The notes below the pieces were generated by a model. That model saw only the letters and a list, made by a program, of their open reading frames with translations. It was not told where the DNA came from and made no database searches. A DNA stretch of 64,000 nucleotides from Persicimonas caeni. GTDB lineage: Bacteria; Myxococcota_A; Bradymonadia; Bradymonadales; Bradymonadaceae. This document shows positions 14,852 to 50,602 of the stretch, piece after piece. The DNA lies in assembly GCF_006517175.1 (NCBI RefSeq), contig NZ_CP041186.1, forward strand, positions 3,995,074 through 4,059,073, in the 5' to 3' direction. Numbering within the stretch: the stretch's first letter is position 1; each line of letters begins with the position of its first letter. The translations under genes were made by a program, and so were the position numbers.

Positions 14852-14907
14852 CGCGACGAGCTGTGACGAAGCAAGCTGTGATGGAAACGTACGACCGGAG
14901 TGTTGGA

Positions 14908-16005
14908 ATGTTTGAAGGCATGTGGAGCCGAGCGCGCGCAGCAATCGTGACGACCTGTTTGATCGCGCTGGGCGCGGCCGGGTGTAGCTCCTCGGCCGGC
15001 GAGGCCTGCGCGACGGACGACGACTGCCAGCCCGGCTACGAATGCGTGAGCACCGGCGGAGTGGTGTTCGGCGAGAGCATCTGCCTGCTCGCCGAGCAGC
15101 CCACTGCGGACGCTCAGTCCGAGCAGCCCGACACCGGCGCCTCCGACACCGCCGACCTCGACGCCGAGGCTCCCTCGGACGTGGCCACCGACGCGAGCGA
15201 AGAGCCCGACACGCTCCAAGACCTCGAAGACGCGTCCGACGCCTCCGACACCACCGACCTCGAAGACGCTGCCGATGCAGACGCTGCCGATACCGACACG
15301 ACCGATGTGGTCGAAGATACGTCCGACGTCGGATGTACGCCGACCAACGGCGGCCAAGAGGCGTGCGACGGAGAGGACAACGACTGCGACGGCCAAGTCG
15401 ACGAGGGCGTCAAGACGACCTACTACCGCGACATGGACAGCGACGACTACGGCGTCACCGGGGACACGGTGGAGAGTTGCTCGCCGTCGCGCGACTACTC
15501 GGCGCTGCAGGGCGGCGACTGCAATGATCGGAATGAGGATATCAATCCGGGAGCCATCGAGACGTGTGACGGCCGCGACAACAACTGTGACGGCCAGATC
15601 GACGAAGGCGTGCTGACGACCTACTACCTCGACACCGACGACGACGGCTACGGCGTCACCGGTGACTCCCAGGAGAGTTGCTCACCGAGCGGCGACTACA
15701 CGGCTACCCAAGACGGCGACTGCGAGGACGGCAACGCCGACGCATACCCCGGCGCCACCGAGCAGTGCAGCCCGTTCATCGATTACGACTGCGACGGGGA
15801 CACGATGTGCGCTGATTCGGCGTGCGCTGGCGAGCCTTGCCTGACCTCCAACGGCTCGGGCTATTGCAGCTCGGGGTCGTGCGTCGTCTCTTCCGGATGC
15901 TTCGACGACACCGATTGTGGGTTCCGCGAGGATTGCCAGTTCTGCTCGGACGGCCCGAACGTGTGCTGCCCGGAAGGCCAACTGTGCCTGTGCCGTCAAA
16001 GGTAG
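14908..16005 (+). CDS. MopE-like lipoprotein with putative metal-binding repeats
   Basis: This 365-aa predicted lipoprotein has a lipobox ending LGAAGC (Cys26). A Cys-rich patch (CATDDDCQPGYEC) follows, then an acidic Asp/Thr/Ala tether (about 65-135). Two and a half MopE-type repeats come next: ACDGEDNDCDGQVDEG, DSDDYGV, GDCNDRNEDINPGAIETCDG, DNNCDGQIDEG, and TDDDGYGV. Their Asp/Asn clusters suggest calcium or other metal binding at the cell surface. The tail is Cys-rich. I chose ATG 14908 because GGAG stands 9-12 bases before it; frames open further upstream to 14848. The stop is 4 bases from the stop of the convergent lipase gene. Confidence 0.85.
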   Translation: MFEGMWSRARAAIVTTCLIALGAAGCSSSAGEACATDDDCQPGYECVSTGGVVFGESICLLAEQPTADAQSEQPDTGASDTADLDAEAPSDVATDASEEPDTLQDLEDASDASDTTDLEDAADADAADTDTTDVVEDTSDVGCTPTNGGQEACDGEDNDCDGQVDEGVKTTYYRDMDSDDYGVTGDTVESCSPSRDYSALQGGDCNDRNEDINPGAIETCDGRDNNCDGQIDEGVLTTYYLDTDDDGYGVTGDSQESCSPSGDYTATQDGDCEDGNADAYPGATEQCSPFIDYDCDGDTMCADSACAGEPCLTSNGSGYCSSGSCVVSSGCFDDTDCGFREDCQFCSDGPNVCCPEGQLCLCRQR

Positions 16006-18180: not shown

Positions 18181-18238
18181 TTCACTGTCACCCGAGCACC
18201 TCCGATCGTGGTAATCAGACCACAAGCGGAGGGCTCCA

Positions 18239-21200
18239 ATGTCTACACAACTGTCGAAATCGATCGTTCGCACGTTCATCGTCTCGTTGACGCTCGCGCT
18301 GGCTGCCTGCAGCGGGGAGCCGGACGACAAGCAGGCGCTCGAGCCGGACGCCGGTGACGTGAGCGTCGACGCGGCGGATAGCGCAGACGTGGTGCCCGAC
18401 GTCGACGAGCCCGACGTCGAAGACGATACGGGCGTCGACGCCGACACGAGCGATACCGCGCCCGACGTCGAAGCAGACGCCGGCGATGTGTCCGGTGGCG
18501 ACACCGACTCCGACACCGGCGTCGACACCTGCATCCATTTCCCCTCCGCCGCTCCCCTCGCCGAAGGCCAAACAAGCGGCGACACCCGCAACTCGGTGCG
18601 CTCGTCTTTGGGCTCGTCGTGCACCGGCGGGGCCAACCAGGCGACCGAAGACGTCTACGTCTTCACCCTCTCCGAAGAGCGCCTGGCGCGGCTGACCGTC
18701 GACCCGGCGTGGTCGTCGAGCCTCGACCCGGTGGTGAGCCTCTACAAAGGATGCAGCGCCATCGCCGAGGAGCTGGTTTGCTACGACGAGCAGCCAAAGC
18801 GCGACGCCGAGCAGATCGACCGGATGCTCGAGCCCGGCACCTACTACGTGGTCGTGCAGGGCGCCGGCTACGACAACGAAGGCGCCTACACCATCGAGTT
18901 CGCCACCGAGCCCGTGGTCTGCTCGCCCGGCGAGTCGAGCTGCAGCGACGCGACGACCTCGCAGGTGTGCAACCCCTGGGGCACTCAGACCCACGAGTTC
19001 GCCTGCGAAGTGGGCTGCGACGCGACGACCGGTCATTGCCAGGTCGAGCCCGGCGAGATGTGCTACGCCGCCATCGACGCGACCGGCGGCTATACCGGCA
19101 CCATCGACTGGAGCCTGCACGCCAACGACTACGACCCGGGCTCCGGCGGGTGCGTGCCCAACAACCACACCACCAGCGCCACCGACGGTCCCGACGTGGC
19201 CTACCGCGTCGAGCTGCCGGCGGACTACGCGCTTCGCGTCAACCTCGAGATGGTCGACGACTACGGCTCGCTCTACCTGGCGCGCGACTGCCAGGACCTC
19301 GAGCAGACCTGCTTTGCGGCGGTCAACCGGGCCAGCCTGCGTGATTCGAGCGGCAACTTCCGCGAGCATATCGGCTACCATAACACCACCGGCGTCGCGC
19401 AGACCCTCTACGTGATCGCCGATACCGGCGCGGCCGACGTGGGCGGACTCGCCAATATCGCCATCGAGATGGGCACCCCCTCGTGTGTGCCCGAGACGAT
19501 GCAGTGCTCGGACGACGACCTGATGGTTTGCGACGCCGCCGGGCTCGACTTCGAAGTCAGCCGAAGCTGCCCGTTCGGCTGCGACACCGCCTCGACTAGC
19601 TGCAACCCCCCGACCAACCTGACCTGCAAGGGCGCGCTCGACCTGATTGCCGCCGGCGGCAGCTACACCGGCCTGATCACCGACTACACTCCCGATTACG
19701 ACCCGGGCTTCGACGGATGCACCTACAGGGAGGCTGCGGGCAAGGACGCGGTCTTCTCGCTCGACGCCCAGGCCGGCCAGATCGTCACGCTGACGATGGA
19801 CGCCGACTTCGACGCCTCGCTGTGGGTCACCACCGATTGCACCCTCGGCACCGACGCCTGCGTAGCCGGACGTGACGGGGAGAGCGAGTCGTTCGAGTCG
19901 CTCCAATTCGTCGCGCCCGAAACGGCCACCTACTACGTCATCGCCGACTCCGATCGCCTCGCCTCGGGCCTCTTTACGGTCACGGCTACCATCGACAACT
20001 TCCCGTCCTGCACGCCGGGCGCCTCGCTGGGGTGCTCGTCGGCGCACCACCTGTCGTATTGCGGCCAAGAGGGCGCTCCCGTCGACTACCTGTGCGAGAC
20101 GACCTGCACCAACGGCGCCTGCGACGCGCCGAGCGGCGATATCTGCCCCGACGCCCGCCCGCTGGCCTCGGGCGATTCGGTCAGCGGCACCCTCGAGGCG
20201 TCCAACGCCATCAACCCCGGCTCCGGGGTGGTCGGCGCGTGCGACTTCGGCGCCAATAGCGGGATCGGCCCCGACACCTTCTTCAGCGTCGACCTGGCCG
20301 CCGACGACCTGCTCGAACTGTCGCTGACGAGCACCTCGGTGGGCGTGATGATGTACCTGCTGCAGGACTGCAACGACGCCTCGAGCTGTCAGGTGCTCCG
20401 GCAGGGCGCGGGCGGCTTCGACCCCACCACGTTGAGCTACCGAGCCAGCCAGGACGAGACGATCTACGTCGTCCTCGACTACCGCTTCGCCAACTCGCCG
20501 CTGCAGACGGTCAGCTACAACCTGTCGGCGACGATCTCGAGCCCGCAGTGCTCCCCCGGCGAGTCGCGCTGCTCGAACCCGTATCTGGAGGTGTGCAACG
20601 ACCAGCGCGTCTTCGAGAGCTTTTTGTGCATGGGCGGCTGCTCGAACGACGCCTGCCTGGTGCCCTCCGGTGACGTCTGCCAGGACGCCGTCACCCTGCA
20701 GTCGGGCGACGTCGTCGAGGGGACCCTCGACGGGGCCAACACGCTGCAGCCGCCTGTAGGAGACGTCGGGTCGTGCTTCTTCAACTCGGCGGCGGACGGC
20801 AAAGAGCGCATCTACGCCATCGACCTGGCCTTCGGCGAGCGCCTCGACGCCAAGCTGCTCGCCAACGACTCGTCGCTGGTCATGTATCTGCTGTCGGACT
20901 GCGCGCAGTCGAATAGCTGCCTGTCGGCCACCCCGCGAGGCGGCGCGTTGCACCTCGACTATACGGCCTCGCAGGACGAGACGGTCTACCTGGTCGTCGA
21001 CGGCACCCGCGACGCCGCCTACAACTACGAGTTGAGCGTGTCGACGCATTTCCCCGGCTGCGGCACCGGCGCCGTGGCGTGCTTGCCCGACGGCAAGTCG
21101 CTGGGCCGGTGCACCAACGACCGGGTCTACGACCCGATCGTGTGCGCCACCACGTGCACCAACGCCGCGTGCGACCAACCCTCGGGCGACGTCTGCTTCG

Positions 21201-24200
21201 ACGCCGTGCCGCTGCAGTCGGGCGACTCGGTCAGCGGTGACTTCGGAGGCACCGACATCATCGACCCGGGCTCGGGGAGCCACGGGGCGTGCGATTTTGG
21301 CGACGACGGCGTGTCCGGCCGCGACACGATCTACTCGGTCGAGGTCGAAGCCGGCGAGATCTTCGAGGCGCGCCTGTCGACCTCGGATCCCGAGGCGGTG
21401 ATGTATCTGCTCGACGACTGCGGCCAGCCGTCGACCTGCATGGAGCGCACGACCTCGGGCACCCTGCGCTACGAAGCCACCCAGAACGACACCCTCTACC
21501 TCGTCGTCGACAGCCAAAACGGCAACCTGCGCCCCTCCACGGGCTTCACCCTCGACGTGATCGTGCAGACGCCGTCGTGCACCCCGGGCGCCAAGTCGTG
21601 CGTCGACAGCCAGACGCTGCAGTATTGCGACCGCTACGGGCTGTCGCGCGAGTACACTTGCGTCGACGAGACCGGCCAGAGCATCACCGCGTGCAACCAC
21701 TCGGCGTGCGACACGCCGCAGGGTGATTTCTGCGCCGACGCCGTCCCCCTGGCCGACGGAGACAACGTCTTTGGCTACTTCGACGGGACGAACTCGGTGC
21801 AGCCCGACGCGGGCTTCGTCGGCGGCTGCTGGTTCGGCGGGCAGGGCCCGGTGGGAAGCGACTTCGTCTACTCGGTCGACCTGCAGGCCGGCGAGGTGCT
21901 CGAGGCGACCGTGTACTCCTCGTCCGATCACGCCGTCGCCTATTTGCTGACCGACTGCTTGGACACGACCAGCTGTCACGACTCCATCGAGCCGGGCGAA
22001 TTGTGGTACGAGGCGACGACCGACGAGACCGTCTACATCGTCGTCGACCGCATGCTGGGCGCCAACGCGCCGACCGAGTCCTTCCAGGTGCTCGTCGAGA
22101 TCGCCACGCCCACCTGCACGCCGGGCGCCACCCAGTGCCGCGCCGACGGGGTGACCCTGGAGACGTGCAACGAGTACGGCGTCTGGGAAGCCTACGGCTG
22201 CCAGGACCCCACGAACAACCAGACCCAACAGTGTGTCAACGGAGCGTGCTCGCCGCAAATGGGTGATGTGTGCGACGACGCGATCGTGCTGCAGGATGGA
22301 GACAGCGTCACCGGCAACTGGGACGGCAACAACAGTATCGACCTGCCCGACGCCACCGTGGGAGCGTGCAGCTTCGACCCCGCCGGCACCGAAGGCGTGG
22401 GCAACGACACGATCTACGCGGTCGACATGCAGGCCGGCGAAGTGCTGCAGGCGACCTACCGGTCGGACAACTACACCGGCTTTATGTACCTGCTCGAGGA
22501 TTGCGCCGACGACCAGTCGTGCCTTGCGCGTACCGAGGGCGTCTCGGAGGACGACACGCTCGTCTACCAGGCCCCGGACGCGCGCCGAGTCTACCTGGTC
22601 GTCGACGACGACATCAATCTGGCGAGCTCCGGGACCTTCACCCTGTCGATCGACCTCGAGATGCCCGGCTGCACCCCGGGAGACTCCCGGTGCGGCCCCA
22701 ACGCGGCGACCGTCGAGGTGTGCAACACGGGCGGCGTGTACGAGTCGTTCCCGTGCACCGGCGGCTGCAACGCCGGGGCGTGCGTCCAGCAGACCGGCGA
22801 GTACTGCGCCGACGCGCTGACTCTGGTCGACGGCGACAGCGTCACCGGCGACTGGAGGGGCACCGACAGCATCCGCCTGGGCGGAGTATCGGGCGCGTGC
22901 GACTTCGGTGGGCAGCAGACCTCGGGCGCCGAGACGGTCTACCGGGTCGACCTGCAGGCCGGCGAGGTGCTCAGCGCCTACCTGACGGCGAGCCTGTCTC
23001 GCACCTCCTCGGTGATGTACGTGCTCGAAGATTGCCCGACGGTGGGCGGGAGTTGCCTGGCCAACAGCCCTACCGGCGACCCGCTCGAGCTGCACTACGA
23101 GGCGACGAGCACAGGCCCGGTCTACTTGGTGGTCGACGCGGTCGACCCCGAGGATTCGTCGGCCAGCTACACCCTCGACATCGACATCCAGACGCCCGGG
23201 TGCGTGGCCGGAGAGACGCGCTGCGGCTCGGGCGGCGGCACGCTGGAGACGTGCAACGAGTACGGGGTCTTCGAGCCGTTCTCCTGCAACGGGTCGTGCT
23301 CGGCAGGCCGCTGCGACAACCCCACCGGCGACTTCTGCTTCGATGCGGTCACGCTGGTCGACGGCGACGAGTTCACCGGCACGTTCGGCGACTACGCCGA
23401 CGACCTCAACCCGGGCACCGACACCTGCGTGCTCGACGCGAGGGACGAACAGGTCGGCCGCGACTCGGTCTACGCCGTGCACCTGCAGGCCGGCCAGACC
23501 CTGGATGCCACGCTGTACGCCACCGACACGAACGCCGGGATGTACGTCCTCGACAGCTGCACGGGCGACACCGCCACGAGCTGCACGCTCGCCGAACCGC
23601 GGTCGAAGGCCTTGTCGTACTATGCGCCCGTGACCCAGACCTACTATCTAGTCGTCGACTCGACGAACACCCACGGCCTGGGTGACTTCACCGTCACGGT
23701 CGACATCCACGCCAACCACACGTGCCAGCCGGGCGGAAGCAGCTGCGACGCCCAGACCGGCACGCTGAGCGTGTGCGACGACGAGGGGGCGGCCATACGG
23801 GCGACGGCCACGTGCACCTGGGGCTGCGACGGGCCGCGCTGCGCCGCGCCGCCCACGGCCAACGACACCTGCGCCCAGGCCGAGCTCATCACCGAGAGCA
23901 CCCGCATTCGCGACTCGTTCGATCGCTTCTCCAACCAGCACACGCCCCCCGACGGGGTCTGCACCGTGTTCAGTCCGCTGGCCGCCGACGCGGTCTACGC
24001 CGTCGAGCTGCAGGCCGGCGAGTCGCTGGTCGCCGAAGTGAGCGGCACGCCGGGGGCGATGGCCTACGTGCTCGACACCTGCGGGGACGACTCGCAATGC
24101 CTTGCAGCCGCTCGCCCAGTGGACGGCGACAATTACGGCACGGGGTACGTCGCCTCGAGCAACCGCACGGTCTACCTCGTCGTCGACGCCATCCCCGAGG

Positions 24201-25279
24201 ACAAGGCGGGCGACTTCGTGCTCGACGTCGACATCGCCCCGCAGCAATGCCAGCCCGGCGCCGCGATCTGCGACGGCTCGACGACCAAGAAGGTGTGCAA
24301 CGACTATGGCCGCTGGGAGGTCACCGAGTGTCCCTTCGGCTGCTACGCTGGCGCCTGTCACCCGGGCCCCAACGACAGCTGCGCGACCGCCCAGCAGACA
24401 GGCGGCGGCTCGTTTAGCGCCTCGTTCGATGCCTATACCAACCAACACGACCCGGCCCTGGCGCCCCCGAGCTGCACCGGCGACGCCGCCGCAGGCCCCG
24501 AGGCGGTCTACTTCGTCGACGCCCAGAAGAACGAGGTCATCCGCGCCAGCGTGCGCAGCCACGAGAACGTGGCGGTCTGGATCTCGACGAACTGCGCGAC
24601 CCCGCACGCCTTCTGCACCGCCGGCGCCGACGAGACCCGCGCGCAGCCTGAAATGGTCGAGTTCGTGGTCCCCGAGGACGGCCGCTACTACATCTTTGCC
24701 GACTCCTACGACCCGTCCGCCACCGGCGAGTTCCGCGTCGACATCGGCGTCGACCCGCCCGCCTGCGGGGCCGGCGCCTCGACGTGCATCGACAACGCCA
24801 CGCTGAGCTACTGCACAAACGACGGCACCGGTTGGGTCGACTACGCCTGCGACGGCGGCTGCTTCAACGGCGCCTGCACCCAGCCTTCGGGCGACGTATG
24901 CGCCGACGCTGTCCCGCTGACCGGCACGACCACGGTCACCGGCGACTTCACCTCGCTCTCCAACGCCCTCGACCCGGGCTACGGCGGCTGCACCGGCTAC
25001 GACGCCCTCGGCCCCGACGCCGCCTACGCCGTCACCCTCGCCGCCGGCCAGACGCTGACGGCCACGCTTCGCAACACCGCGCTCTCCGAGGACCTGTCGC
25101 TGTACGTCCTGAGCGACTGCACGGACGCGAAGGGCGCGTGTGTGGCCGGCTCGGACGTGTACGGGGCGGCCGACGAGACGGTCACCTATACGGCGACGGC
25201 CGACGAGACAGTGTACGTGGTGGCGGATAGCTACGATGTGGCGGTGGGCGTGTTCGAGTTGGAGGTGGTGGTGCAGTAG
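18239..25279 (+). CDS. Giant Cys-rich lipoprotein with 13 PPC-like beta-domains
   Basis: This 2346-aa predicted lipoprotein has a lipobox ending LALAAC (Cys24). An acidic Asp/Val/Thr tether of about 70 residues follows. Then a unit of about 165 residues repeats 12 times. Each unit starts with a six-Cys knot-like module (CTPGATQC, then a Cys-Asn/Asp pair before a Gly, then GxC). A PPC-like beta-sandwich follows, with GDxCxDA, VDLQAGEVL, MYLLDDC and VYLVVD signatures. One extra beta-domain precedes the first Cys module. About ten Cys per unit imply many disulfides outside the cell. PPC domains are usually appended to secreted peptidases, but no catalytic domain is present. A cell-surface adhesin or binding fibre is the inferred role. 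GGAGGG precedes the ATG. Confidence 0.85.
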   Translation: MSTQLSKSIVRTFIVSLTLALAACSGEPDDKQALEPDAGDVSVDAADSADVVPDVDEPDVEDDTGVDADTSDTAPDVEADAGDVSGGDTDSDTGVDTCIHFPSAAPLAEGQTSGDTRNSVRSSLGSSCTGGANQATEDVYVFTLSEERLARLTVDPAWSSSLDPVVSLYKGCSAIAEELVCYDEQPKRDAEQIDRMLEPGTYYVVVQGAGYDNEGAYTIEFATEPVVCSPGESSCSDATTSQVCNPWGTQTHEFACEVGCDATTGHCQVEPGEMCYAAIDATGGYTGTIDWSLHANDYDPGSGGCVPNNHTTSATDGPDVAYRVELPADYALRVNLEMVDDYGSLYLARDCQDLEQTCFAAVNRASLRDSSGNFREHIGYHNTTGVAQTLYVIADTGAADVGGLANIAIEMGTPSCVPETMQCSDDDLMVCDAAGLDFEVSRSCPFGCDTASTSCNPPTNLTCKGALDLIAAGGSYTGLITDYTPDYDPGFDGCTYREAAGKDAVFSLDAQAGQIVTLTMDADFDASLWVTTDCTLGTDACVAGRDGESESFESLQFVAPETATYYVIADSDRLASGLFTVTATIDNFPSCTPGASLGCSSAHHLSYCGQEGAPVDYLCETTCTNGACDAPSGDICPDARPLASGDSVSGTLEASNAINPGSGVVGACDFGANSGIGPDTFFSVDLAADDLLELSLTSTSVGVMMYLLQDCNDASSCQVLRQGAGGFDPTTLSYRASQDETIYVVLDYRFANSPLQTVSYNLSATISSPQCSPGESRCSNPYLEVCNDQRVFESFLCMGGCSNDACLVPSGDVCQDAVTLQSGDVVEGTLDGANTLQPPVGDVGSCFFNSAADGKERIYAIDLAFGERLDAKLLANDSSLVMYLLSDCAQSNSCLSATPRGGALHLDYTASQDETVYLVVDGTRDAAYNYELSVSTHFPGCGTGAVACLPDGKSLGRCTNDRVYDPIVCATTCTNAACDQPSGDVCFDAVPLQSGDSVSGDFGGTDIIDPGSGSHGACDFGDDGVSGRDTIYSVEVEAGEIFEARLSTSDPEAVMYLLDDCGQPSTCMERTTSGTLRYEATQNDTLYLVVDSQNGNLRPSTGFTLDVIVQTPSCTPGAKSCVDSQTLQYCDRYGLSREYTCVDETGQSITACNHSACDTPQGDFCADAVPLADGDNVFGYFDGTNSVQPDAGFVGGCWFGGQGPVGSDFVYSVDLQAGEVLEATVYSSSDHAVAYLLTDCLDTTSCHDSIEPGELWYEATTDETVYIVVDRMLGANAPTESFQVLVEIATPTCTPGATQCRADGVTLETCNEYGVWEAYGCQDPTNNQTQQCVNGACSPQMGDVCDDAIVLQDGDSVTGNWDGNNSIDLPDATVGACSFDPAGTEGVGNDTIYAVDMQAGEVLQATYRSDNYTGFMYLLEDCADDQSCLARTEGVSEDDTLVYQAPDARRVYLVVDDDINLASSGTFTLSIDLEMPGCTPGDSRCGPNAATVEVCNTGGVYESFPCTGGCNAGACVQQTGEYCADALTLVDGDSVTGDWRGTDSIRLGGVSGACDFGGQQTSGAETVYRVDLQAGEVLSAYLTASLSRTSSVMYVLEDCPTVGGSCLANSPTGDPLELHYEATSTGPVYLVVDAVDPEDSSASYTLDIDIQTPGCVAGETRCGSGGGTLETCNEYGVFEPFSCNGSCSAGRCDNPTGDFCFDAVTLVDGDEFTGTFGDYADDLNPGTDTCVLDARDEQVGRDSVYAVHLQAGQTLDATLYATDTNAGMYVLDSCTGDTATSCTLAEPRSKALSYYAPVTQTYYLVVDSTNTHGLGDFTVTVDIHANHTCQPGGSSCDAQTGTLSVCDDEGAAIRATATCTWGCDGPRCAAPPTANDTCAQAELITESTRIRDSFDRFSNQHTPPDGVCTVFSPLAADAVYAVELQAGESLVAEVSGTPGAMAYVLDTCGDDSQCLAAARPVDGDNYGTGYVASSNRTVYLVVDAIPEDKAGDFVLDVDIAPQQCQPGAAICDGSTTKKVCNDYGRWEVTECPFGCYAGACHPGPNDSCATAQQTGGGSFSASFDAYTNQHDPALAPPSCTGDAAAGPEAVYFVDAQKNEVIRASVRSHENVAVWISTNCATPHAFCTAGADETRAQPEMVEFVVPEDGRYYIFADSYDPSATGEFRVDIGVDPPACGAGASTCIDNATLSYCTNDGTGWVDYACDGGCFNGACTQPSGDVCADAVPLTGTTTVTGDFTSLSNALDPGYGGCTGYDALGPDAAYAVTLAAGQTLTATLRNTALSEDLSLYVLSDCTDAKGACVAGSDVYGAADETVTYTATADETVYVVADSYDVAVGVFELEVVVQ

Positions 25280-25350
25280 ACCGCCCAGAATAATCTGCAA
25301 CCCCGATTCGTTTTTTCCCGGAGGCCACGGTCGGGACAATTGGGAAGCAG

Positions 25351-27330
25351 ATGAAAGACGAAGTCACGAACACGGACGAGCAGCCGGGCTCGGTCGAAGA
25401 GCGCCTCGAGCAGCGTAGCTACGAGCTCGGCGAGCGCGTCAAAGAGCTCAGTTGTCTGTATGACATCTCGCAGATGCTGCTCGAGACGCGGTCTGACGAA
25501 CTCGAGTCGGTGCTCGAGCGTGTCGTCGGGCGGATTCCGGCCGGCTGGCAGCATCCAGAGTTGGCGGCCGCGCGCATTCGGGTCGGCGAGGTGGTCTGCC
25601 AGACCGACGGCTTTGCGCACACGCCTTGGGTCCAGCGCCAGCCGTTCACGGTCTGCGAGGGCGTCGAAGGCGTGATCGACGGCGTGGTCGAGGTCGCCTA
25701 CCTCGACGAGCCGCCCGAGCGGGGCGGCCAGGTCTTCATCGATGAAGAGGCGAAGCTCATCGAGGCGATCGCCGATCGTCTCTCCGAAGCGGTGCGCCGC
25801 GCGCAGGCCGAGGAGCGTGTGCGCTTCCAAGCGACCCTGCTCGAGGCGGTGGGCGAGGCGGTCATCGCCACGGACCTCGACGGGCGGGTGCTGTATTGGA
25901 ACGGACGCGCCGAGGCGCTGTTTGGCTGGAGCGAGCAGGAGGCGCTCGGCCGAAATATTCTCGAGATGAACACCCCTGAGGACGCCCGTGAGCGGGCCGA
26001 AGAGATTTTGGCCAACGTCGCCCGCGGCGAGCGTTGGTCGGGAGAGTTCGAGGTACGTCGAAAGGACGGCACGAGCTTTCCCGCCCAGGTGACCTCCAGC
26101 CCCATCCTCGACGAGGCCGGCCGGCTGGTCGGCGTGGTGGGCATCTCGCGCGACCTGACCGAGCGCAAGGCCATCGAGGCCCAGCTTCGCCAGGCGCAGA
26201 AGTTGGAGGCGGTGGGGCGGCTGGCCGGCGGCATCGCCCACGATTTCAACAACATGCTCACCGCCATCAAGGGCAACACGCAGCTCCTGCGGGAGGATGT
26301 CGGTGGCGACGAGGAGCTGATCGAGCACGTCGGCGAGATCGAGCAGGCTGCCCGTCGGGCGGCGTCGCTGACCCGACAGTTGCTCGCCTTCAGTCGACAG
26401 CAGGTCTTGCAGCCAGAGAAGCTGTGTCTGGCAGAAGTCGTCGGCGCGATGAAGCCGATGCTCGAGCGGCTCATCGGCGAGCACATCGAGCTCGACGTCC
26501 GCCCGCAGGCCGGTCTCGGCTTCGTCGAGGCGGACGAGGGCCAGCTCTCCCAGGTGGTCTTGAATCTGGTGGTCAACGCGCGCGACGCGATGGCCGGCGG
26601 CGGGCGGGTCGTCGTCGAGTTAGACAACGTCGAGCTCGACCGCCCCTGCGAGGGCGTCCCGGTCGAGGTGCCCGAGGGGCGCTACGTGGTGCTCTCGGTC
26701 GCCGACGAGGGCCACGGGATCGACGACGAGGTCCTCAATCACATCTTCGATCCCTTCTTCACCACCAAGAAAGATGGCAGCGGGCTGGGTTTGTCGACGG
26801 TCTACGGCATCATCAAGCAGAGCGGCGGGCATGTGCAGGTAGAGACCGAGCTGGGCGAAGGGACCGCCCTGCACGTGTATTTGCCCCGCGCCGAAGTCCC
26901 CCCGGAGGCGACGAACCCCAAGCCGACCAAGCCCCCCAAACGCCCGCCGGCGGCGCACGCCCACACGATCCTGGTCTGTGAGGACGAGCCGGTCGTGCGC
27001 CGGTTGGCGTCACGCGCATTGTCGCGCCAGGGTTATCGCGTGCTGGTGACCAAATCGGGCACCGAGGCGCTCGACGTGCTCGAGCGGGCCGACATTTCGA
27101 TCGACGTGGTCGTCTCCGACGTGGTCATGCCCGAGCTGGGCGGCCTGGAGCTGGCCGCGATCATCGACGAGCGTTGGCCGCAGATCCGCGTCCTGCTGAT
27201 CAGCGGCTACCCCAGCCGCGACGTGCTCGACGCCGACGCGCTCGAGATCGCCACGCCCTTTTTGCCTAAGCCGTTCGGGTTCGACGAGTTGTGCCAGAAG
27301 GTGGCTGAGTTGCTCGATGTTGATGGGTGA
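25351..27330 (+). CDS. Hybrid sensor histidine kinase (PAS-HisKA-HATPase-REC)
   Basis: This 659-aa kinase has no membrane segment, so sensing is probably cytoplasmic. Residues 14-150 form a coiled coil and GAF-like region (VKELSCLYDISQMLLETRSD). A PAS domain is at about 155-275 (IATDLDGRVLYWNGRAEALFGW). The phospho-acceptor is in GGIAHDFNNML (His297). The ATP-binding N, G1 and G2 boxes are at about 400-490 (VVNARDAM, DEGHGID, GSGLGLSTV). After a Pro/Lys linker, a receiver has Asp590 (VSDVVMPELGG) and Lys640. It lies between two large lipoprotein genes, 71 bases after the first. No output regulator is adjacent, so phosphotransfer to a distant partner is likely. Confidence 0.93.
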   Translation: MKDEVTNTDEQPGSVEERLEQRSYELGERVKELSCLYDISQMLLETRSDELESVLERVVGRIPAGWQHPELAAARIRVGEVVCQTDGFAHTPWVQRQPFTVCEGVEGVIDGVVEVAYLDEPPERGGQVFIDEEAKLIEAIADRLSEAVRRAQAEERVRFQATLLEAVGEAVIATDLDGRVLYWNGRAEALFGWSEQEALGRNILEMNTPEDARERAEEILANVARGERWSGEFEVRRKDGTSFPAQVTSSPILDEAGRLVGVVGISRDLTERKAIEAQLRQAQKLEAVGRLAGGIAHDFNNMLTAIKGNTQLLREDVGGDEELIEHVGEIEQAARRAASLTRQLLAFSRQQVLQPEKLCLAEVVGAMKPMLERLIGEHIELDVRPQAGLGFVEADEGQLSQVVLNLVVNARDAMAGGGRVVVELDNVELDRPCEGVPVEVPEGRYVVLSVADEGHGIDDEVLNHIFDPFFTTKKDGSGLGLSTVYGIIKQSGGHVQVETELGEGTALHVYLPRAEVPPEATNPKPTKPPKRPPAAHAHTILVCEDEPVVRRLASRALSRQGYRVLVTKSGTEALDVLERADISIDVVVSDVVMPELGGLELAAIIDERWPQIRVLLISGYPSRDVLDADALEIATPFLPKPFGFDELCQKVAELLDVDG

Positions 27331-27337
27331 GGGTTTG

Positions 27338-27668
27338 TGTTTTCCTCCTCCTCGGTCCTCCTCCACTTCGCTTTGCTTGCGGAGGAGGAGTCCCCTCCTC
27401 GGTCCTCCCCTACGCTACGCTACGCTTCGCTTCGCGCAGGGGAGGAAGATGTTGCTACTACGCACCTAGTACAGAGTTCGATTGAACGACGTCTTCCTCT
27501 CCGCCCGTAACGAAGTGGAGGGAAGGAGAGGACCGAGGAGAGGCCCCCCTCTCCACCCGTAGCGAAGCGAAGGGAAGGAGAGGGATCGAGGGAGAGGCCC
27601 AAACACCCTCTCCACCCGTAGCGTAGCGAAGCGAAGGGAAGGAGAGGGATCGAGGGAGAGGCCCCCAA
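27338..27668. repeat. Family D repeat array, copy 2
   Basis: The whole gap between the kinase and the convergent lipoprotein gene is repeat. It holds three blocks of the type CCCTCTCCACCCGTAGCG, then AAGCGAAGGGAAGGAGAGGG. A reverse-oriented block (CCTCCTCGGTCCTCC with TACGCTTCGCTTCGC) precedes them. The inverted blocks could fold into long hairpins and end both transcripts. A shorter relative is at 10826-10932. Confidence 0.75.
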
Positions 27669-27671
27669 ACC

Positions 27672-28880
27672 TCACTCCCCATCATCCGGATCCGGACAAC
27701 TCGGGATATCGCAGAAGCCGACGTGCGGCTCGGGGACGGTGGTGTCGGGGATGATGCAGATCTGGCCGGAGTCGCAGTCGGCGTCGGTCGCGCATAGCGG
27801 GCGGCAGACGTCGTTGCAGCCGCAGTAGCCTTCGGCGAAGCCGTCGACCACGTTGCACAGCTTCTGGAAGGGGGTGTCGGGGCACGATTCGCCGGGGCGT
27901 ACGTCGGGGGCGAGGCGCAGGGGGTCGTTGCTGCAGATGTCGCGGGTGTAGCCGCCGCCTGCGAACATGCAGGTGTAGCCGTCGGCGCAGCCCTGGCGGG
28001 CGTCGAAGTCGCACTCGCTCATGCAGCGGTGCTCGCCGGCCAGCGCGTCGCCCTCGCAGATCTCGTCTTGTTGGCAGCCGAGGACCGGCAGCGGCTCGGG
28101 CTGCTCGTCGGGGCAGCTCAGGCTGCCGTCGGAGCACGGTTGCCTGTTGCAGTCGGGGTCGAAGGCGCCGCACTCGCAGTTGCAGTACTCGCCGTCGCGG
28201 TACGACTGCACCGGGCAGGTCCAGCCCGACGGCGGGAAGGTTCCCTTGAAGCTGAAGTCGGCCACCTCGATGCACACTCCGCCGGGCACCGGCGTCGAGT
28301 AGCGACCCTCGCCGACCTCGACCTCGACCAGGCGCAGGTCCGTCACCGACACGTCGAGCGTGCGCTGGAACGGGTCGGCGTTGCTCACCAGCGTGCCGCG
28401 GTCGGCGAAGAAGGCGCGCTCGCGCACGTCGCCGCGGATGTAGAGGCAGTGCGCGCAGTTGCCGAAGTTGCTGTCGCGGCCCGGACCGAGCTCGAAGGTG
28501 CCCGTGTACGTCGCATTCCCGTAGCGCTCGAAGAGGATCGACAACTGGCGCGTCTCGCCCTCGATCTGCGGGCTCGCCTGCACCGAATACTCCACCGAGA
28601 CCCCGTCCTCGTAGACCTCGCCGACCGTCTGAGCGAGCTCGACTTGCAGGCAGTCGTCTTTGCCGACGTCGCTCGTGTCGGCGTCGTCGGCGTCGTCGGA
28701 GGTGTCTTCGGCTGTATCGGTCGCGTCGGTCGCGCCCGTGTCGGACGGCTCGGCAGTGTCGGCGGTGTCGGAGACGTCGGCGGCGCCGGTATCGGCGGTG
28801 TTGTTGCTCTGGGTATTGTCGTCGCTGCAGGCGCTGGTCAGAAGGGCGAGGGCCGATAAAATTACTGCGAGGCGCGTCAT
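27672..28880 (-). CDS. Cys-rich tethered lipoprotein, function unknown
   Basis: This 402-aa predicted lipoprotein has a lipobox ending LLTSAC (Cys18). An Asp/Thr/Ala tether (about 20-75, SDTADTAEPSDTGATDATD) follows, then a beta-rich domain of about 110 residues. The C-terminal 180 residues are dense in cysteine (for example EYCNCECGAFDPDC, and CGCNDVCRPLCATDADCDSG). I chose ATG 28880 because GGATG stands 7 bases before it; an in-frame start 27 bases upstream lacks a site. I recognise no family. It lies between the two giant lipoprotein genes but on the opposite strand, and no TGTGAC direct repeat precedes it. Confidence 0.75.
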   Translation of the reverse strand: MTRLAVILSALALLTSACSDDNTQSNNTADTGAADVSDTADTAEPSDTGATDATDTAEDTSDDADDADTSDVGKDDCLQVELAQTVGEVYEDGVSVEYSVQASPQIEGETRQLSILFERYGNATYTGTFELGPGRDSNFGNCAHCLYIRGDVRERAFFADRGTLVSNADPFQRTLDVSVTDLRLVEVEVGEGRYSTPVPGGVCIEVADFSFKGTFPPSGWTCPVQSYRDGEYCNCECGAFDPDCNRQPCSDGSLSCPDEQPEPLPVLGCQQDEICEGDALAGEHRCMSECDFDARQGCADGYTCMFAGGGYTRDICSNDPLRLAPDVRPGESCPDTPFQKLCNVVDGFAEGYCGCNDVCRPLCATDADCDSGQICIIPDTTVPEPHVGFCDIPSCPDPDDGE

Positions 28881-29019
28881 TTTTACATCCTGAGTGGGGC
28901 CAATCACGGTGCAATGCTTCCTGAAGTCTGTGGAGCGTAGTGTTTTTGGGCGTGGGAAGCAATTTTAAGGCGATTGGTTGGGCGGTTTGGGTTGTTGTGG
29001 GGGCCCACGCAAACCCAAA

Positions 29020-29035
29020 TGTGACACTCTGTGAC
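29020..29035 (+). promoter_or_regulatory. Operator-like direct repeat TGTGAC-N4-TGTGAC, site 2
   Basis: TGTGACACTCTGTGAC is followed by TTC, and a good -10-like TATAAG (29064-29069) begins 29 bases after the repeat. The ATG of the 1851-aa lipoprotein is at 29108. Sixteen bases of the site are identical to site 3 and differ at one base from site 1. Confidence 0.78.
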
Positions 29036-29107
29036 TTCATCCCCCACCCACCCTTCGCGACCCTATAAGGCGTACCAGTAGACCCCCCTCGCCTCGCGGA
29101 GGCCCCT

Positions 29108-32100
29108 ATGTCCTCGACGCTACTGTCCCCGACGCTACGCGCTCGCTCCATCGCCTGGATCTTCGTCTCGCTGACCCTCTTCCTCGCCGCCTGCAGCGAC
29201 GAGCCGACTCCGGCGGAGCCGGACGTCTCCGAGACGCCCGACGCCGGTGCAGACGTCGAGCCAGATACGACGCCGGACACCGCGCCGGACACCGCGCCCG
29301 ACTTGTGCGCGGGGCTCGAGTGTCCGGAGGGGACGTTGTGCAATCCGCAGACGGGTCTGTGCGAGGTGCAGAATACCTGCACCACTTCGGCCGATTGCGC
29401 TCAAGGGGAGAGCTGCCTCGACGCGCGGTGTGTGCCCTCCGAGGACGTGTGCGAGGTGCTCGGGTGCACGGGCAACCAGCATTGCCTGTACGACGAGGCG
29501 AGCGCGAGCGGGCGGTGTGAGGAGGACGACGTCAACGGATGTACGAACGCGCTCGATTGTGTCGGGGAGCGGGTGTGTGTGGCCGGGGCGTGTGCGGAGC
29601 CGCAGGCGTGTCGGGACGATATGCACGAGGCGAATGATCTCGTCTCGCAGGCCACCGAGTTCCAGGCGGCACAGTCGGGCGGGGTGGTGCAGGGGACGGT
29701 GTGCGCGGGCGACAGCGACCACTTCAAGTACAACCTGGCCTGGCAGACGACCTCGGCGGGCATGCTGACCGCGCGGCTGCAGTTCGCGCCCGAGGACGTG
29801 GGCGTGGGCGATGTGACCCTCGAGCTCGTCGAGCCGAGCGGGGCGGTGCGCCAGACGGCGACGAGCGACGCGAGCGGGCTGGTCGAGGTCGAGCAGCGGG
29901 TGCTCATCACCAACCAGGGCGAGTGGATCGTGCGGGTCAAAGATGCGGGCAACACCGAGACGGCCGGGGTGCGCTATGCGCTGTCGGTCGACCTCGTGCC
30001 CGAAGACGTCGACACGGCGTGTGAACAGGCCACCGAGCTGAGCGCGCCGCAGAGCATCCACGGGACGACCGACCTCAGCCAGAGCTTCGAGATGGGCTCG
30101 TCGTGCACGGCGAGTGACAACCGCTCGGGGGAGGTCGTCTACAGCTTCGAGTTGAGCGAGCAGAGCTGGGTGACGGCGACGGTCACCCCCGACGACGACG
30201 AGACGATGTCGCTGGCGGTGCGCACCGCGTGCGGGTTTGCGAGCACCGAGATCGCCTGCGAGAACCAGCAAGACGGGGTCGTCGAGTACGGCCAGGTGCT
30301 CGAGCCGGGGACATATTATGTGATCGTGCAGGGCCGCGAGGTGAGCAGCGGGGGCGGGTTTACGCTCGACCTCGACGCCGAGCCGGTGGTGTGCTCGTTT
30401 CGCGACAACGGCTGCGCCGACGCCGACACCGCCCGGGTGTGCGACGCCTCGCGCACCGGCTTCGACCAGGTGACCTGCCCGTCGGGCTGCGACTCCAATA
30501 CTGGCTATTGTCAGGCCGACGCCGAGTCGTGCATGACCGCCATCGACGCCAGCCAGGGGGGCACGTTCACCGGCGAGATTCACAATCTGCTGCGCCACCA
30601 CCGGTTGTCGGACACCAACCCCTGCTTGGGCCATCGGGTCGACGGCTCCGACGCGGTCTATCGGGTGGACGCCAACGGCGGGGACATGATTCGCGCCACC
30701 GTCGACGCGCCGTTCGACGCCGCGCTGTGGATCGCCGCGTCGTGCCCCGACGCCTCCGACAGTTGCGTGGCGGGCACGGACATGGACAACCCCGAAAAGC
30801 TCGACTTCGAGGTGCCCACCGACGGCACCTATTACGTGGTCGTCAGCGCGGTGGCGCGAGGCGCGGTGGGCACCTACACCCTCGACATCGAGGCCGGCGC
30901 CCCGCAGTGCATCCCCGGCGAGAAGCGCTGCCTCGACGCCGACACGATCGAGTATTGCGGCTGTGCGGCGAGCTGGGAGTACTACGACTGCGCCGCGAGC
31001 TGCGCGTCGGGCGAGTGTGCGACCTCGACGGGCGATATCTGCCCGGAGGCCATCCCGGCGGCCGACGGCGACACGCACACCTTCGACCCGACGTCGGCCC
31101 AGGACGATATCCGCGCCGTGGAGCATTGCCTCGGCGACGGCGCTCCCGCCCCGGACGGCTTCTATGCGGTCGAGCTCGACGCCAAGGAGGTCTTGGAGGT
31201 GACCGTCTCGGCGCAAAACGGGCGCGACGACACCGCCATCTACCTGCTCGAAGACTGCATGAACCCCGAGCAGACCTGCCTCAAAGGCGCCGACCGCGAG
31301 GGTGACGGGGGCGACGAGACGCTCCGATACCGCGCGCCTGTCGCCACGACGGTCTACGTGGTCGTCGACGGCGATAGCGCGGCGAAGGCGACCGGGCTGT
31401 GGGGCGTGTCGTTTACGATCCACTCGCCGCTGTGCACTCCTTACGACGCGCGCTGCGCCGGGCCCGACACCCTCGAGTATTGCGATGCTTACGGCATCGA
31501 GTGGGTGGAGCAGAGTTGCTACGGGTTTGGCTGCTCGGCCAACGCGTGCATCCCGCCGTCGAACGACACGTGTGCGACCGCCGCCGATGCGGGCACCACC
31601 GGGGCGAGCTTCCAGCACAATATCGAGCCGTACAGGATGGACTATCAGCTCCCAGTGGGCGAGTTCAGCTGCACGGGCTTCACCTCGTTCGGCCCCGACG
31701 CGGTCTACAAGGTCCACGCGCAGGCCGGCCAGGTGATCACCGCCGAGGTCAACTCGGTCTTCGACGCCCAATTGTGGATCACGACCGACTGTTCGACGCC
31801 GGCCTGGGAGCATTGCGTGGTCGGCGACGACGAATATGCCGGCTGGGCGGGGCTGCCGCCGAGCACCGAGAAGGTCCAGCACAAGGTGGAGACGACCGGG
31901 ACCTACTACATCATCGTGACCGCCGAGCAGATTACCCAGACCGACCAGTTCCCCAATGGCGACTTCACCGTCGACATCAGCGTCGACACGCCCATCTGCA
32001 CCCCCGGCGCCACGACCTGCCTCGACGCGCAGACGATGGAGTATTGCGGCAACTTCGGCCTGCAGGAGATCCGCTACGTGTGTGACGGCGGCTGCCAGAA

Positions 32101-34663
32101 CGGCGTGTGCGCCGACCCGCGCGGTCAGGTTTGCGCCGACGCGATCCCGGCCGACGACGGCGACTTCTTCGTCATCGACATGACCCAGCACGGCGACATC
32201 TCCGACCTGCACAAAAACCAGTGCGGGGGCACGACCAACAGCGTCAACGGCATGGCGAGCGACGGCCCCGAGGCCTACTTCGAGGTCGACCTGCAGGCCG
32301 GCGAGGTGCTCACCGTCCAGGCCACGCCCCACCACGACTACGACGACCCGATGATCTACGTGGTCACCGACTGCACCGACACGCCGCATACCTGCGAAGG
32401 GGGCGTCAACAACGCGCTGAAGGGGGAACGCGAGGTGTACCACTACCAGTCGTCGACAGATCAGACGGTCTACGTGGTCGTCGACAGCGCGCTGCGCACC
32501 CACGGGCGCGACGACTACGAGGTCTCGTTCGACATCGCCCCGCAGGTGTGCCAGCCCGGCCAGGCGCTGTGCCAGGACAAGATGTCGCGCACCTGCAACG
32601 AGGCGGGCACTGCCTGGATCGACGAGTGGTGCACCTTCGGGTGCACGGCCGGGGCGTGCGACCCGGCGAGCAACGATCGCTGCGTCGACGCGTTCCGCAT
32701 CCCGGGCTCGGGCCTGTACGACGTCGACATGTGGGACGTGACCAACACCGAGTCGCGCACCTGCCTGCCCAAGCCGGGCGACGCCGAAGAGGCGTTCTTC
32801 AAGTTCGAGCTCGCCGCCAACGAGGTGCTCGACGTCGAGGTGATCCCGTGGGCGGAGGCCGACGAGGTGCTCTTGAGCCTGGTCTCCGATTGCAACGACC
32901 CGTCGAACACCTGCCTGGCCGCCGCCGACAACCTCGACAGCGGCATGGCCGAGCGGATCATCTACCAGGCCGGCAACGCCCCCGAGACGGTCTATCTCAT
33001 CGTCGAGAGCGTCATCCAATGGAGCGCGCCGGGGACCGGCGAGACGCGCGGCATCCGGCTGCTCGACGTCAAGATGGGCCCGCGGGTGTGCAACCCGCTC
33101 GAGACGGTGTGCGCGAGTCAAACGGTGATGAGCTACTGTAACGAGAGCGGCACGACCTGGGAGACCTGGGCGTGCGACGGCATCTGCGCGAGCGGCGAGT
33201 GCGTCGACGCCACCGGCGAGACGTGCATCGACGCCATCGACGCCTCGGGCGGCGGCGTGTTCACCGGACGCATCGAGACGTTCGGCATCGACCACCCGCT
33301 GGGCGACTGGCGCACCAACTGCACCGGCTCGAGCGACGTCGGCCCCGACGTGGTCTACGAGGTCGAGGCCTACGCCGGCGACGTCATCCGCGCCGAGCTC
33401 GACGCCGATTTCTGGGGCTCGATCCGCATCGTCGACGACTGCACCGACGCGGTGAACAACTGCGTCATTGGCGAGTCCAACGGCAACCCGCGCGAGGTGA
33501 CCTACCGCGTGCCGAGCAACGGGACGTACTACGTGATCGTGTCGTCGTTCATGGAGGCGTCGCGCGGCGAATTCGAGGTGCGCATCGACGCCGGCCCGCA
33601 GATCTGCACCGCCGGCGACGCCCACTGCACCGGCTCGACCCTCGAGACGTGCAGCCCGAGCGGCACGAGCTGGCTGCAAAAGGACTGCCTGCACGGCTGC
33701 ACCACCGACGCGTGCGACTCGGCCCCCAACGACACTTGCGCGGGGGTCATCGACGCCACCGGCGGCGGAAGCTACACCGTCGACCCGGCGCTTCTGACCG
33801 ACACCGTCGACCTGGGCTCGACGGGCTGCCTGGGCGAGGCGACCCCGGCGCCCGACGCCTTCTACCGCGTCGACCTGGCCGCCGGCGACATCCTCGAGGC
33901 GACGCTGACCCCGCAATACTGGGGCGACGACCCGGCGATCTACCTCGTGAGCGACTGCGCGACCGCGCAGACGACGTGCTTGGACGGCGTCGACGAGGGC
34001 CAGCCGGGCGACGCCGAAGAGCTCGTCTACCAGGCCGCCCAGGCCGAGACGGTCTACCTGGTCGTCGACGGCGACTCAGTCGACGAGGCCAACAAGCTGT
34101 GGGACCTCGACATCGCCGTCGGCCCGCTCATCTGCAACCCCGAAGAGACGCGCTGCGCCGACGCGACCACGCTGGAGTATTGCGGCGTGCACGGCACGCG
34201 CTGGCACAGCTACACCTGCGACGGCTCCTGCTCGGCCGGCGCGTGCGCCACGCCCACCGGCGACGTGTGCATCGACGCCATCCCGGTGGGCGGCGGCGGA
34301 ACGTTCGCCGCGGACATGACGAGCTACACCAACACGCTCACCCCGCAAGCAGGCGCGTGCTACTCGAGCATGAGCCTTGGCAACGAGGTCGTCTACGCCA
34401 TCACGCTCGCCGCTGGCCAGACCGCCGACATCCGCGTGATCCCCGACCGCGACGACACCGCCGAGTTCTACCTGCTGTCGAGCTGCCTGCGCGACGACTA
34501 CGCGAACACCTGCCTGGCCGAGGCGACGCCGCCCGACCCGTTCACCAAGACGCTGGAGTATAGCTACACGGCGGTGAGTGACGAGACGGTGTATTTGGTG
34601 GTGGATGCTGCGTCGCAGGGGGCGCAGTCGGGGGTTTGGCAGGTGGATGTGGGGATTTGGTGA
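29108..34663 (+). CDS. Giant Cys-rich lipoprotein with PPC-like beta-domains (paralogue)
   Basis: This 1851-aa predicted lipoprotein has a lipobox ending LFLAAC (Cys29). A short Asp/Pro/Thr tether and a Cys-rich patch of about 120 residues (CTTSADCAQGESC, and similar) follow. Two PPC-like beta-domains then precede eight repeats of the Cys-module plus beta-domain unit seen in the 2346-aa protein (CTPGATTC, EYCGNFG, VDLQAGEVL, VYVVVD). The two proteins are clear paralogues by domain plan but are not simple tandem copies. No enzyme motif is visible. GGAGG precedes the ATG. The last codons run into the family G repeats. A shared upstream operator-like repeat suggests co-regulation. Confidence 0.85.
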   Translation: MSSTLLSPTLRARSIAWIFVSLTLFLAACSDEPTPAEPDVSETPDAGADVEPDTTPDTAPDTAPDLCAGLECPEGTLCNPQTGLCEVQNTCTTSADCAQGESCLDARCVPSEDVCEVLGCTGNQHCLYDEASASGRCEEDDVNGCTNALDCVGERVCVAGACAEPQACRDDMHEANDLVSQATEFQAAQSGGVVQGTVCAGDSDHFKYNLAWQTTSAGMLTARLQFAPEDVGVGDVTLELVEPSGAVRQTATSDASGLVEVEQRVLITNQGEWIVRVKDAGNTETAGVRYALSVDLVPEDVDTACEQATELSAPQSIHGTTDLSQSFEMGSSCTASDNRSGEVVYSFELSEQSWVTATVTPDDDETMSLAVRTACGFASTEIACENQQDGVVEYGQVLEPGTYYVIVQGREVSSGGGFTLDLDAEPVVCSFRDNGCADADTARVCDASRTGFDQVTCPSGCDSNTGYCQADAESCMTAIDASQGGTFTGEIHNLLRHHRLSDTNPCLGHRVDGSDAVYRVDANGGDMIRATVDAPFDAALWIAASCPDASDSCVAGTDMDNPEKLDFEVPTDGTYYVVVSAVARGAVGTYTLDIEAGAPQCIPGEKRCLDADTIEYCGCAASWEYYDCAASCASGECATSTGDICPEAIPAADGDTHTFDPTSAQDDIRAVEHCLGDGAPAPDGFYAVELDAKEVLEVTVSAQNGRDDTAIYLLEDCMNPEQTCLKGADREGDGGDETLRYRAPVATTVYVVVDGDSAAKATGLWGVSFTIHSPLCTPYDARCAGPDTLEYCDAYGIEWVEQSCYGFGCSANACIPPSNDTCATAADAGTTGASFQHNIEPYRMDYQLPVGEFSCTGFTSFGPDAVYKVHAQAGQVITAEVNSVFDAQLWITTDCSTPAWEHCVVGDDEYAGWAGLPPSTEKVQHKVETTGTYYIIVTAEQITQTDQFPNGDFTVDISVDTPICTPGATTCLDAQTMEYCGNFGLQEIRYVCDGGCQNGVCADPRGQVCADAIPADDGDFFVIDMTQHGDISDLHKNQCGGTTNSVNGMASDGPEAYFEVDLQAGEVLTVQATPHHDYDDPMIYVVTDCTDTPHTCEGGVNNALKGEREVYHYQSSTDQTVYVVVDSALRTHGRDDYEVSFDIAPQVCQPGQALCQDKMSRTCNEAGTAWIDEWCTFGCTAGACDPASNDRCVDAFRIPGSGLYDVDMWDVTNTESRTCLPKPGDAEEAFFKFELAANEVLDVEVIPWAEADEVLLSLVSDCNDPSNTCLAAADNLDSGMAERIIYQAGNAPETVYLIVESVIQWSAPGTGETRGIRLLDVKMGPRVCNPLETVCASQTVMSYCNESGTTWETWACDGICASGECVDATGETCIDAIDASGGGVFTGRIETFGIDHPLGDWRTNCTGSSDVGPDVVYEVEAYAGDVIRAELDADFWGSIRIVDDCTDAVNNCVIGESNGNPREVTYRVPSNGTYYVIVSSFMEASRGEFEVRIDAGPQICTAGDAHCTGSTLETCSPSGTSWLQKDCLHGCTTDACDSAPNDTCAGVIDATGGGSYTVDPALLTDTVDLGSTGCLGEATPAPDAFYRVDLAAGDILEATLTPQYWGDDPAIYLVSDCATAQTTCLDGVDEGQPGDAEELVYQAAQAETVYLVVDGDSVDEANKLWDLDIAVGPLICNPEETRCADATTLEYCGVHGTRWHSYTCDGSCSAGACATPTGDVCIDAIPVGGGGTFAADMTSYTNTLTPQAGACYSSMSLGNEVVYAITLAAGQTADIRVIPDRDDTAEFYLLSSCLRDDYANTCLAEATPPDPFTKTLEYSYTAVSDETVYLVVDAASQGAQSGVWQVDVGIW

Positions 34664-37927: not shown

Positions 37928-38018
37928 TTTGGTAGCCCCCCGCGAAGTGAAGCGGAGCTGGGGGGAGAAGGGTGGGGATGAGGATGATAGCCCCCCGCGA
38001 AGCGGAGGGAGGAAGGCG
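37928..38018. repeat. Family D-like GC-rich repeat
   Basis: Two segments TAGCCCCCCGCGAAG (about 37932 and 37987) with GAAGCGGAG and a purine-rich run between form inverted and direct repeats. The block lies just upstream of the large regulator gene. Resemblance to family D is partial. Confidence 0.5.
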
Positions 38019-38037
38019 TTCACGACGGCGCGACAAT

Positions 38038-47988: not shown

Positions 47989-47993
47989 TATAC

Positions 47994-48734: not shown

Positions 48735-48757
48735 CGATTCTTCGAAGCGCTATTTAG

Positions 48758-50454: not shown

Positions 50455-50460
50455 ATTTAG

Positions 50461-50568
50461 GCAGACAAACTACAAATTTGAGGGTCGTGTCAGCGACCTC
50501 GGTCGTCGGTTGGAACGATCCTTCGACACACGTTGGATAGAACGACCCCAAAATTGTAGTTTGTCCGC
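50461..50568. repeat. Long palindrome adjoining the insertion site
   Basis: The left arm is GCAGACAAACTACAAATTTG plus GGGTCGT (50461-50488). The right arm is ACGACCCC, AAAATTGTAG, TTTGTCCGC (50542-50568). They pair with two or three mismatches around a 53-base loop. The insertion sequence duplicated ATTTAG immediately at its left edge. It lies in the lgt upstream region. Confidence 0.85.
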
Positions 50569-50602
50569 TCAAATAGCACGCTTCAACTCTCGAAGGCCTC
50601 CG

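Follow-up and report, generated by a model that had tools for sequence, protein, structure and literature searches.

The window considered here is a stretch of 64,000 nucleotides from the genome of Persicimonas caeni, a marine predatory bacterium whose genome was searched as one contig of 8,047,206 bases; gene calls in the window and in the compared loci were made in this analysis. Two very large genes lie on its forward strand. They encode proteins of 2346 and 1851 aa, here called giant 1 (P0001) and giant 2 (P0002), and both open reading frames are present with the coordinates given in an earlier, sequence-only reading of this DNA. Their features are as follows, in window positions:

18239..25279, plus strand: giant 1, 2346-aa lipoprotein of the architecture P(CP)12 (open reading frame, Pfam PPC match, unit alignment)
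18239..18310, plus strand: giant 1 signal peptide and lipobox LAAC/SGEP with Cys24 (sequence)
18311..18529, plus strand: giant 1 acidic tether, 73 aa with 27 D/E (residue count)
18530..18919, plus strand: giant 1 first PPC domain, p0 (profile match, tree)
18920..25276, plus strand: giant 1 twelve Cys-module/PPC units, the last one at 24764-25276 (unit alignment, profile; last PPC also by tree)
29108..34663, plus strand: giant 2, 1851-aa lipoprotein consisting of a Cys-rich block, a PPC domain and P(CP)8 (open reading frame, Pfam PPC match, unit alignment)
29306..29611, plus strand: giant 2 N-terminal Cys-rich block, residues 67-168 (Cys positions)
29612..30391, plus strand: giant 2 canonical-looking PPC (residues 169-304, by eye) and chain p0 (residues 305-428, profile and tree)
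30392..34660, plus strand: giant 2 eight Cys-module/PPC units (unit alignment, profile)

The lipid anchor and acidic tether that had been ascribed to both proteins are borne out. The lipobox of giant 2 reads LAAC/SDEP with Cys29, and its acidic tether comprises 37 aa with 12 D/E. Wherever the start of a family member could be read, a lipobox is nearly always present, and Cys-rich blocks like that of giant 2 open most giants of the family. Giant 1 contains 125 Cys residues and giant 2 contains 104, and the net charges are about -274 and -226, respectively. Long open frames also run antisense to the two genes (18215-23482, minus strand, 1755 aa; 29135-33916, minus strand, 1593 aa); most likely these are no genes but a by-product of GC-rich codon usage.

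Each chain has the architecture P(CP)n, i.e. an extra PPC domain (P) is followed by n units, each of which consists of a six-Cys module (C) of about 38 aa and a four-Cys PPC domain. Both the profile and the unit alignment give n = 12 for giant 1 and n = 8 for giant 2, as the sequence-only reading had counted, whereas its unit size of about 165 residues was too small: the 20 window units measure 170-188 aa, with a mean of about 176. Pairwise identity among these units is 20-46%. Ten columns of the alignment hold Cys, and one holds Tyr, in every one of the 20. The earlier figure of about ten Cys per unit thus holds, with a single unit of giant 2 having eleven. Of 198 distinct Cys modules of full length in the wider family, 197 keep all six Cys, and 270 of 275 PPC domains keep all four. 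The idea of a disulfide-rich chain gains support from this conservation, and the Cys residues would be expected to pair. With a profile built from the window's own units, per-unit E-values go down to 1e-44 to 1e-54, and units from other genomes also reach 1e-47. Judged from these E-values, a chance pattern is excluded.

PPC (PF04151) is the sole Pfam family above cut-off in the giants (74.7 bits in giant 1 and 56.5 bits in giant 2, versus 25.9), which together with the structural matches below confirms the PPC-like sandwiches proposed before. A catalytic domain in the units, which would have spoken against the surface fibre of the earlier reading, was looked for with Pfam and NCBIfam and found in neither giant, and the motifs HExxH, GTSxAxP and GDSGGP are absent as well. 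It had been regarded as peculiar that PPC domains occur here without a peptidase. The giants indeed have none, but this is ordinary in P. caeni: seven further ORFs with PPC in its genome likewise show no peptidase domain in Pfam searches. Sequence searches of the PDB and of phages and plasmids returned no match.

An AlphaFold2 model of a unit pair, computed with 98 aligned natural sequences, reached a mean pLDDT of 92.0 and a pTM of 0.84. Foldseek ranks the two consecutive collagen-binding domains of ColG first (5iku, E 4.5e-10). The P domain superimposes on the collagen-binding domains of the clostridial collagenases ColH/ColG (3jqw, Z 12.8, rmsd 2.3, 108 aligned; 2o8o, Z 12.7, rmsd 2.4, 103 aligned) and, with a lower score, on the lysozyme inhibitor PliG (4dzg, Z 11.0, rmsd 2.4, 103 aligned). 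According to the model, the P domain adopts the PPC beta-sandwich, which is known as a fold of the binding type and as modelled names no particular ligand. The C module, modelled alone with a pLDDT of 95.5, has no Pfam match of its own in the giants, and its structural matches are all weak (Z <=3.9). They comprise CBM14-type folds (Der p 23, Z 3.9, rmsd 1.6, 37 aligned; Avr4, Z 2.6, rmsd 1.9, 38 aligned) and pacifastin inhibitors (up to Z 3.6, rmsd 2.3, 29 aligned, for 2f91). Neither the Cys spacing of CBM14/peritrophin-A nor the pacifastin Cys signature occurs in any of 160 modules, and on this ground we did not assign the C module to either family. Since the structural matches are weak and the Cys spacings differ, we regard the C module as a small, presumably disulfide-knotted fold of uncertain kinship. 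Judged from the structural neighbours of both domains, the chains could also be anchored inhibitor arrays directed against proteases or lysozymes, which would protect the predator against lytic enzymes, be they its own or those of its prey. However, the pacifastin signature is missing throughout, and the P domain scores higher against collagen-binding domains than against PliG, so that we consider such arrays very improbable.

A role of the C module as a spacer is suggested by the company it keeps. In a genome of the same class (G052), lipoproteins are built of many PPC domains that alternate with a Cys-rich spacer as in the giants, but there DUF4215 (PF13948) stands in place of the C module; DUF4215 itself was not matched in the giants by Pfam, even with E-values up to 1 admitted. 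We take this replacement as support for the spacer role. Likewise counted in its favour is the occurrence of the same C module ahead of an IgGFc_binding domain (PF17517), also in proteins of the window's own genome. Such IgGFc_binding proteins of Myxococcota have a lipobox, an acidic stretch and the Cys module in common with the giants; unlike the giants, they carry only 1-3 Cys modules, no P domains and a different C-terminal domain. By itself, the Cys module occurs in 138 of 284 genomes of Myxococcota and has thus been reused across the phylum.

The giants also resemble better-known systems in part. With bacterial collagenases (the collagen-binding domains of ColG/ColH and the PPC of Grimontia M9A collagenase) they share the PPC family and fold, and the M9A collagenase PPC has four conserved Cys as well (PMC6168687). 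In contrast to collagenases, the giants lack a catalytic module, are lipid-anchored and contain up to 14 PPC domains alternating with a six-Cys module. Here, PPC serves as the main body of the chain and not as a peptidase accessory. TraA, the myxobacterial kin-recognition receptor, is a surface protein of the same phylum with Cys-rich tandem repeats (PMC3820747). This is an analogy only, as TraA has a PA14-like recognition domain and a MYXO-CTERM anchor; neither was found in the giants, which give no Pfam match to PA14. CglB, also from this phylum, is a surface lipoprotein adhesin of Myxococcus gliding with a VWA domain (PMC12288465), which the giants do not have.

For a phylogenetic view of the chain we computed a tree from six giants, which belong to three genera and contribute 76 PPC domains. 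One clade (support 100/100) unites the first PPC domains, including those of both window giants. In giant 1 and four giants of two other genera, clades are additionally formed by the second PPC (100/99), by the third (98/91) and by the last (99/95). The middle positions are mixed and poorly resolved, and domain-by-domain best matches agree with the tree. Giant 2 has only the first PPC in common with this ordered group. The two giants, which had been termed paralogous, can therefore be regarded as such with respect to architecture and first PPC, but most units of giant 2 do not pair with units of giant 1. Across 15 giants, the last PPC has a mean identity of 35%, compared with 28-30% for middle ones, a mild hint at a special tip. 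In three Lujinxingia genomes, representing three species with one genome each, n = 12 and n = 13 are kept, and domain identity is 79-99% between two of them. As the end clades are ordered, the middle is mixed and n is stable in Lujinxingia, the chain has ends that are old and conserved one by one, and a middle in which the number of units changed over deep time. It had been proposed that repeat number may change by recombination and that unit numbers should be compared among strains. For the short term the former is unsupported: the window units are 20-46% identical, the longest exact DNA common to any two of them is 29 bp, and n is constant in the orthologues of the three Lujinxingia species. 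The comparison itself was made between species.

Chains of this type are a family trait. All 20 same-family relatives searched match giant 1, and the unit profile matched in 21 of 21 family genomes including the window's own, with 5-48 units each, in a sample containing one genome per species; outside this family, matches are for the most part less numerous and lower in score. Where counted in the family, n is 3-13, and the chains are often tandem paralogues. In one genome (G003, L044 and L045), about ten short-chain giants lie in tandem on one contig.

In the loci compared, no gene neighbourhood is conserved for the window pair. A hybrid histidine kinase gene (25351-27330), which starts 71 bp after giant 1, has no counterpart in the compared giant loci of relatives, and a secD-secF-recJ-like run (gene names read from sequence) adjoins a tandem giant pair in two other genera. 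These comparisons bear on the question whether the chains, instead of being mechanical adhesins, might capture nutrients, metal ions or prey debris in a multivalent manner. The repeated binding-type domains and the strongly negative net charge would fit such a role, as would the polyauxotrophy of these predators, which need prey material (PMC7460792). On the other hand, the compared loci have no conserved neighbour that encodes a transporter, a TonB-dependent receptor or an uptake function, and such charge is probably common in a salt-living lineage. We therefore regard capture as quite unlikely.

Upstream of both giants we found a direct-repeat element of 20 bp, which also precedes a third lipoprotein gene, P0004:

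18165..18184, plus strand: direct-repeat element TGTGACAATCTGTGACTTCA, 54 bp before the giant 1 start codon
29020..29039, plus strand: direct-repeat element TGTGACACTCTGTGACTTCA, 68 bp before the giant 2 start codon
37856..37875, minus strand: direct-repeat element TGTGACACTCTGTGACTTAA, 75 bp before the P0004 start codon, third window copy with one end mismatch
35042..37780, minus strand: P0004, lipoprotein of 912 aa, Cys-rich at its N-terminus, with EPND...A segments that resemble PPC (sequence; relatives in the family)

Whereas the window has three copies, none occurred in 100 shuffles of it. In the genome, three exact 16-base matches stand against about 0.001 expected, and the intact form TGTGAC-N4-TGTGAC-NT is rare, with only four copies. 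The fourth lies 178 bp before the gene of a 694-aa lipoprotein (L113:8086-10366, genome position 2968085 onward), which contains TSP3 repeats as well as a DHSGSM motif of MIDAS-like type. This motif is a point of comparison with CglB, but the protein gives no Pfam VWA match. By comparison, predicted lipoproteins make up about 15% of sampled genes (47/306), and none of seven one-mismatch copies lies ahead of a recognisable lipoprotein. The intact element was not found before the giants of other genera. Among relatives, however, G012 (L098) has an exact copy 55 bp ahead of a frame for an exported, trypsin-like protein, and an intact repeat precedes a Cys-rich lipoprotein in G005. The 10-bp direct repeat resembles response-regulator operators, and by this analogy it may be one. 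The shared element suggests that the giants are co-regulated with other surface-type lipoproteins, and P0004 is a probable member of their regulon. P0004 itself matches no Pfam family above cut-off; a cluster of its paralogues is situated at genome positions 1528973-1540185 (L075), one of them with PPC and P_proprotein domains. Since folding of the upstream DNA of the giants gave different hairpins (z -4.1 and -2.0), we claim no common hairpin.

In the five positions after the lipobox, the giants have on average 2.4 acidic residues, compared with 1.1 in ten other lipoproteins, reminiscent of the lipoprotein export signal of Bacteroidetes. In a larger sample of this genome, Cys-rich and Cys-poor lipoproteins did not differ (p 0.14). 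As acidic residues are common in all lipoproteins of the genome, we dropped the reading as a surface-sorting signal. A lipobox alone directs a protein to the outer membrane without specifying the side, and the acidic residues, not being specific within the genome, yield no demonstrable surface-export signal. The chains could accordingly sit in the periplasm at the inner leaflet, where they would bind peptidoglycan or another partner and serve as spacers or as scaffolds of the envelope. An extended chain of 25 domains, however, would by domain sizes measure tens of nm and exceed the usual periplasm; moreover, Pfam yielded no peptidoglycan-binding family in the giants, and the closest structures are extracellular binding domains. 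A periplasmic location therefore seems unlikely.

We favour adhesive rods as the best interpretation on the grounds of the lipid anchor, the conservation of the Cys residues, the presence of a binding-type fold in up to 14 copies, the contact-dependent predation in the family (PMC7188933, PMC7460792, PMC11509652) and the element ahead of other lipoproteins of surface type. We give a somewhat better than even chance (about 0.55) to the view that the giants are co-regulated, lipid-anchored, disulfide-stapled adhesive rods exposed at the surface, in which we infer the disulfides, exposure, rigidity, adhesion, regulator and role towards prey. The surface fibre for contact envisaged in the earlier reading is thus plausible; the common upstream element, the family-wide occurrence and the ordered end units go beyond it. 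As outer-membrane lipoproteins, the giants would begin their mature part with a flexible acidic tether, from which the long C/P chain would project beyond the cell, forming a rod that is stiff and resists proteases. The C modules would be disulfide-knotted spacers between P domains, and the latter would provide many weak binding sites, similar to the PPC domains of collagenases, which bind collagen (PMC6168687). The conserved last unit would most likely be the tip, and the rods could act as adhesins toward a cell, a surface or prey. Expression together with P0004 and the lipoprotein with the MIDAS-like motif would be achieved via the common direct-repeat operator.

Predation of bradymonads is reported to be contact-dependent, as it is in the cultured members of the family (PMC7460792, PMC11509652). 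The open-access reports considered here mention type IV pili, secretion systems and vesicles in this context, whereas a dedicated adhesin is not among the factors they name. The putative giant anchored rods, which occur family-wide, represent specific candidate genes for work on bradymonad predation. It is important to note that the predatory habit and the giant family are confounded by shared ancestry. A bolder and rather doubtful proposal is that the giants constitute the main prey- or surface-holding organelle of bradymonad predators, i.e. a lineage-specific class of rods on a lipid anchor, in which the units at base and tip are fixed and the reach is determined by a middle that is elastic in evolution; they would form one regulon with the MIDAS-motif lipoprotein.

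Several further features surround the giants. A gene for a Cys-rich lipoprotein with 29 Cys and no Pfam match (27672-28907, minus strand) is divergent from giant 2, and another Cys-rich lipoprotein, with MopE-type metal-binding motifs, is encoded at 14848-16005. The genes ileS, an lspA-like frame (read from sequence) and lgt lie close together at 45112-51631, which places lipoprotein-processing genes less than 20 kb from the giants. Divergent from P0004, positions 37972-41406 encode a STAND/NB-ARC type NTPase with TPR repeats. Between the giants (27496-27666) there is a tandem array of three 64-bp repeats, part of a dispersed element that has about 70 matches in the genome, many of them with an inverted partner nearby.
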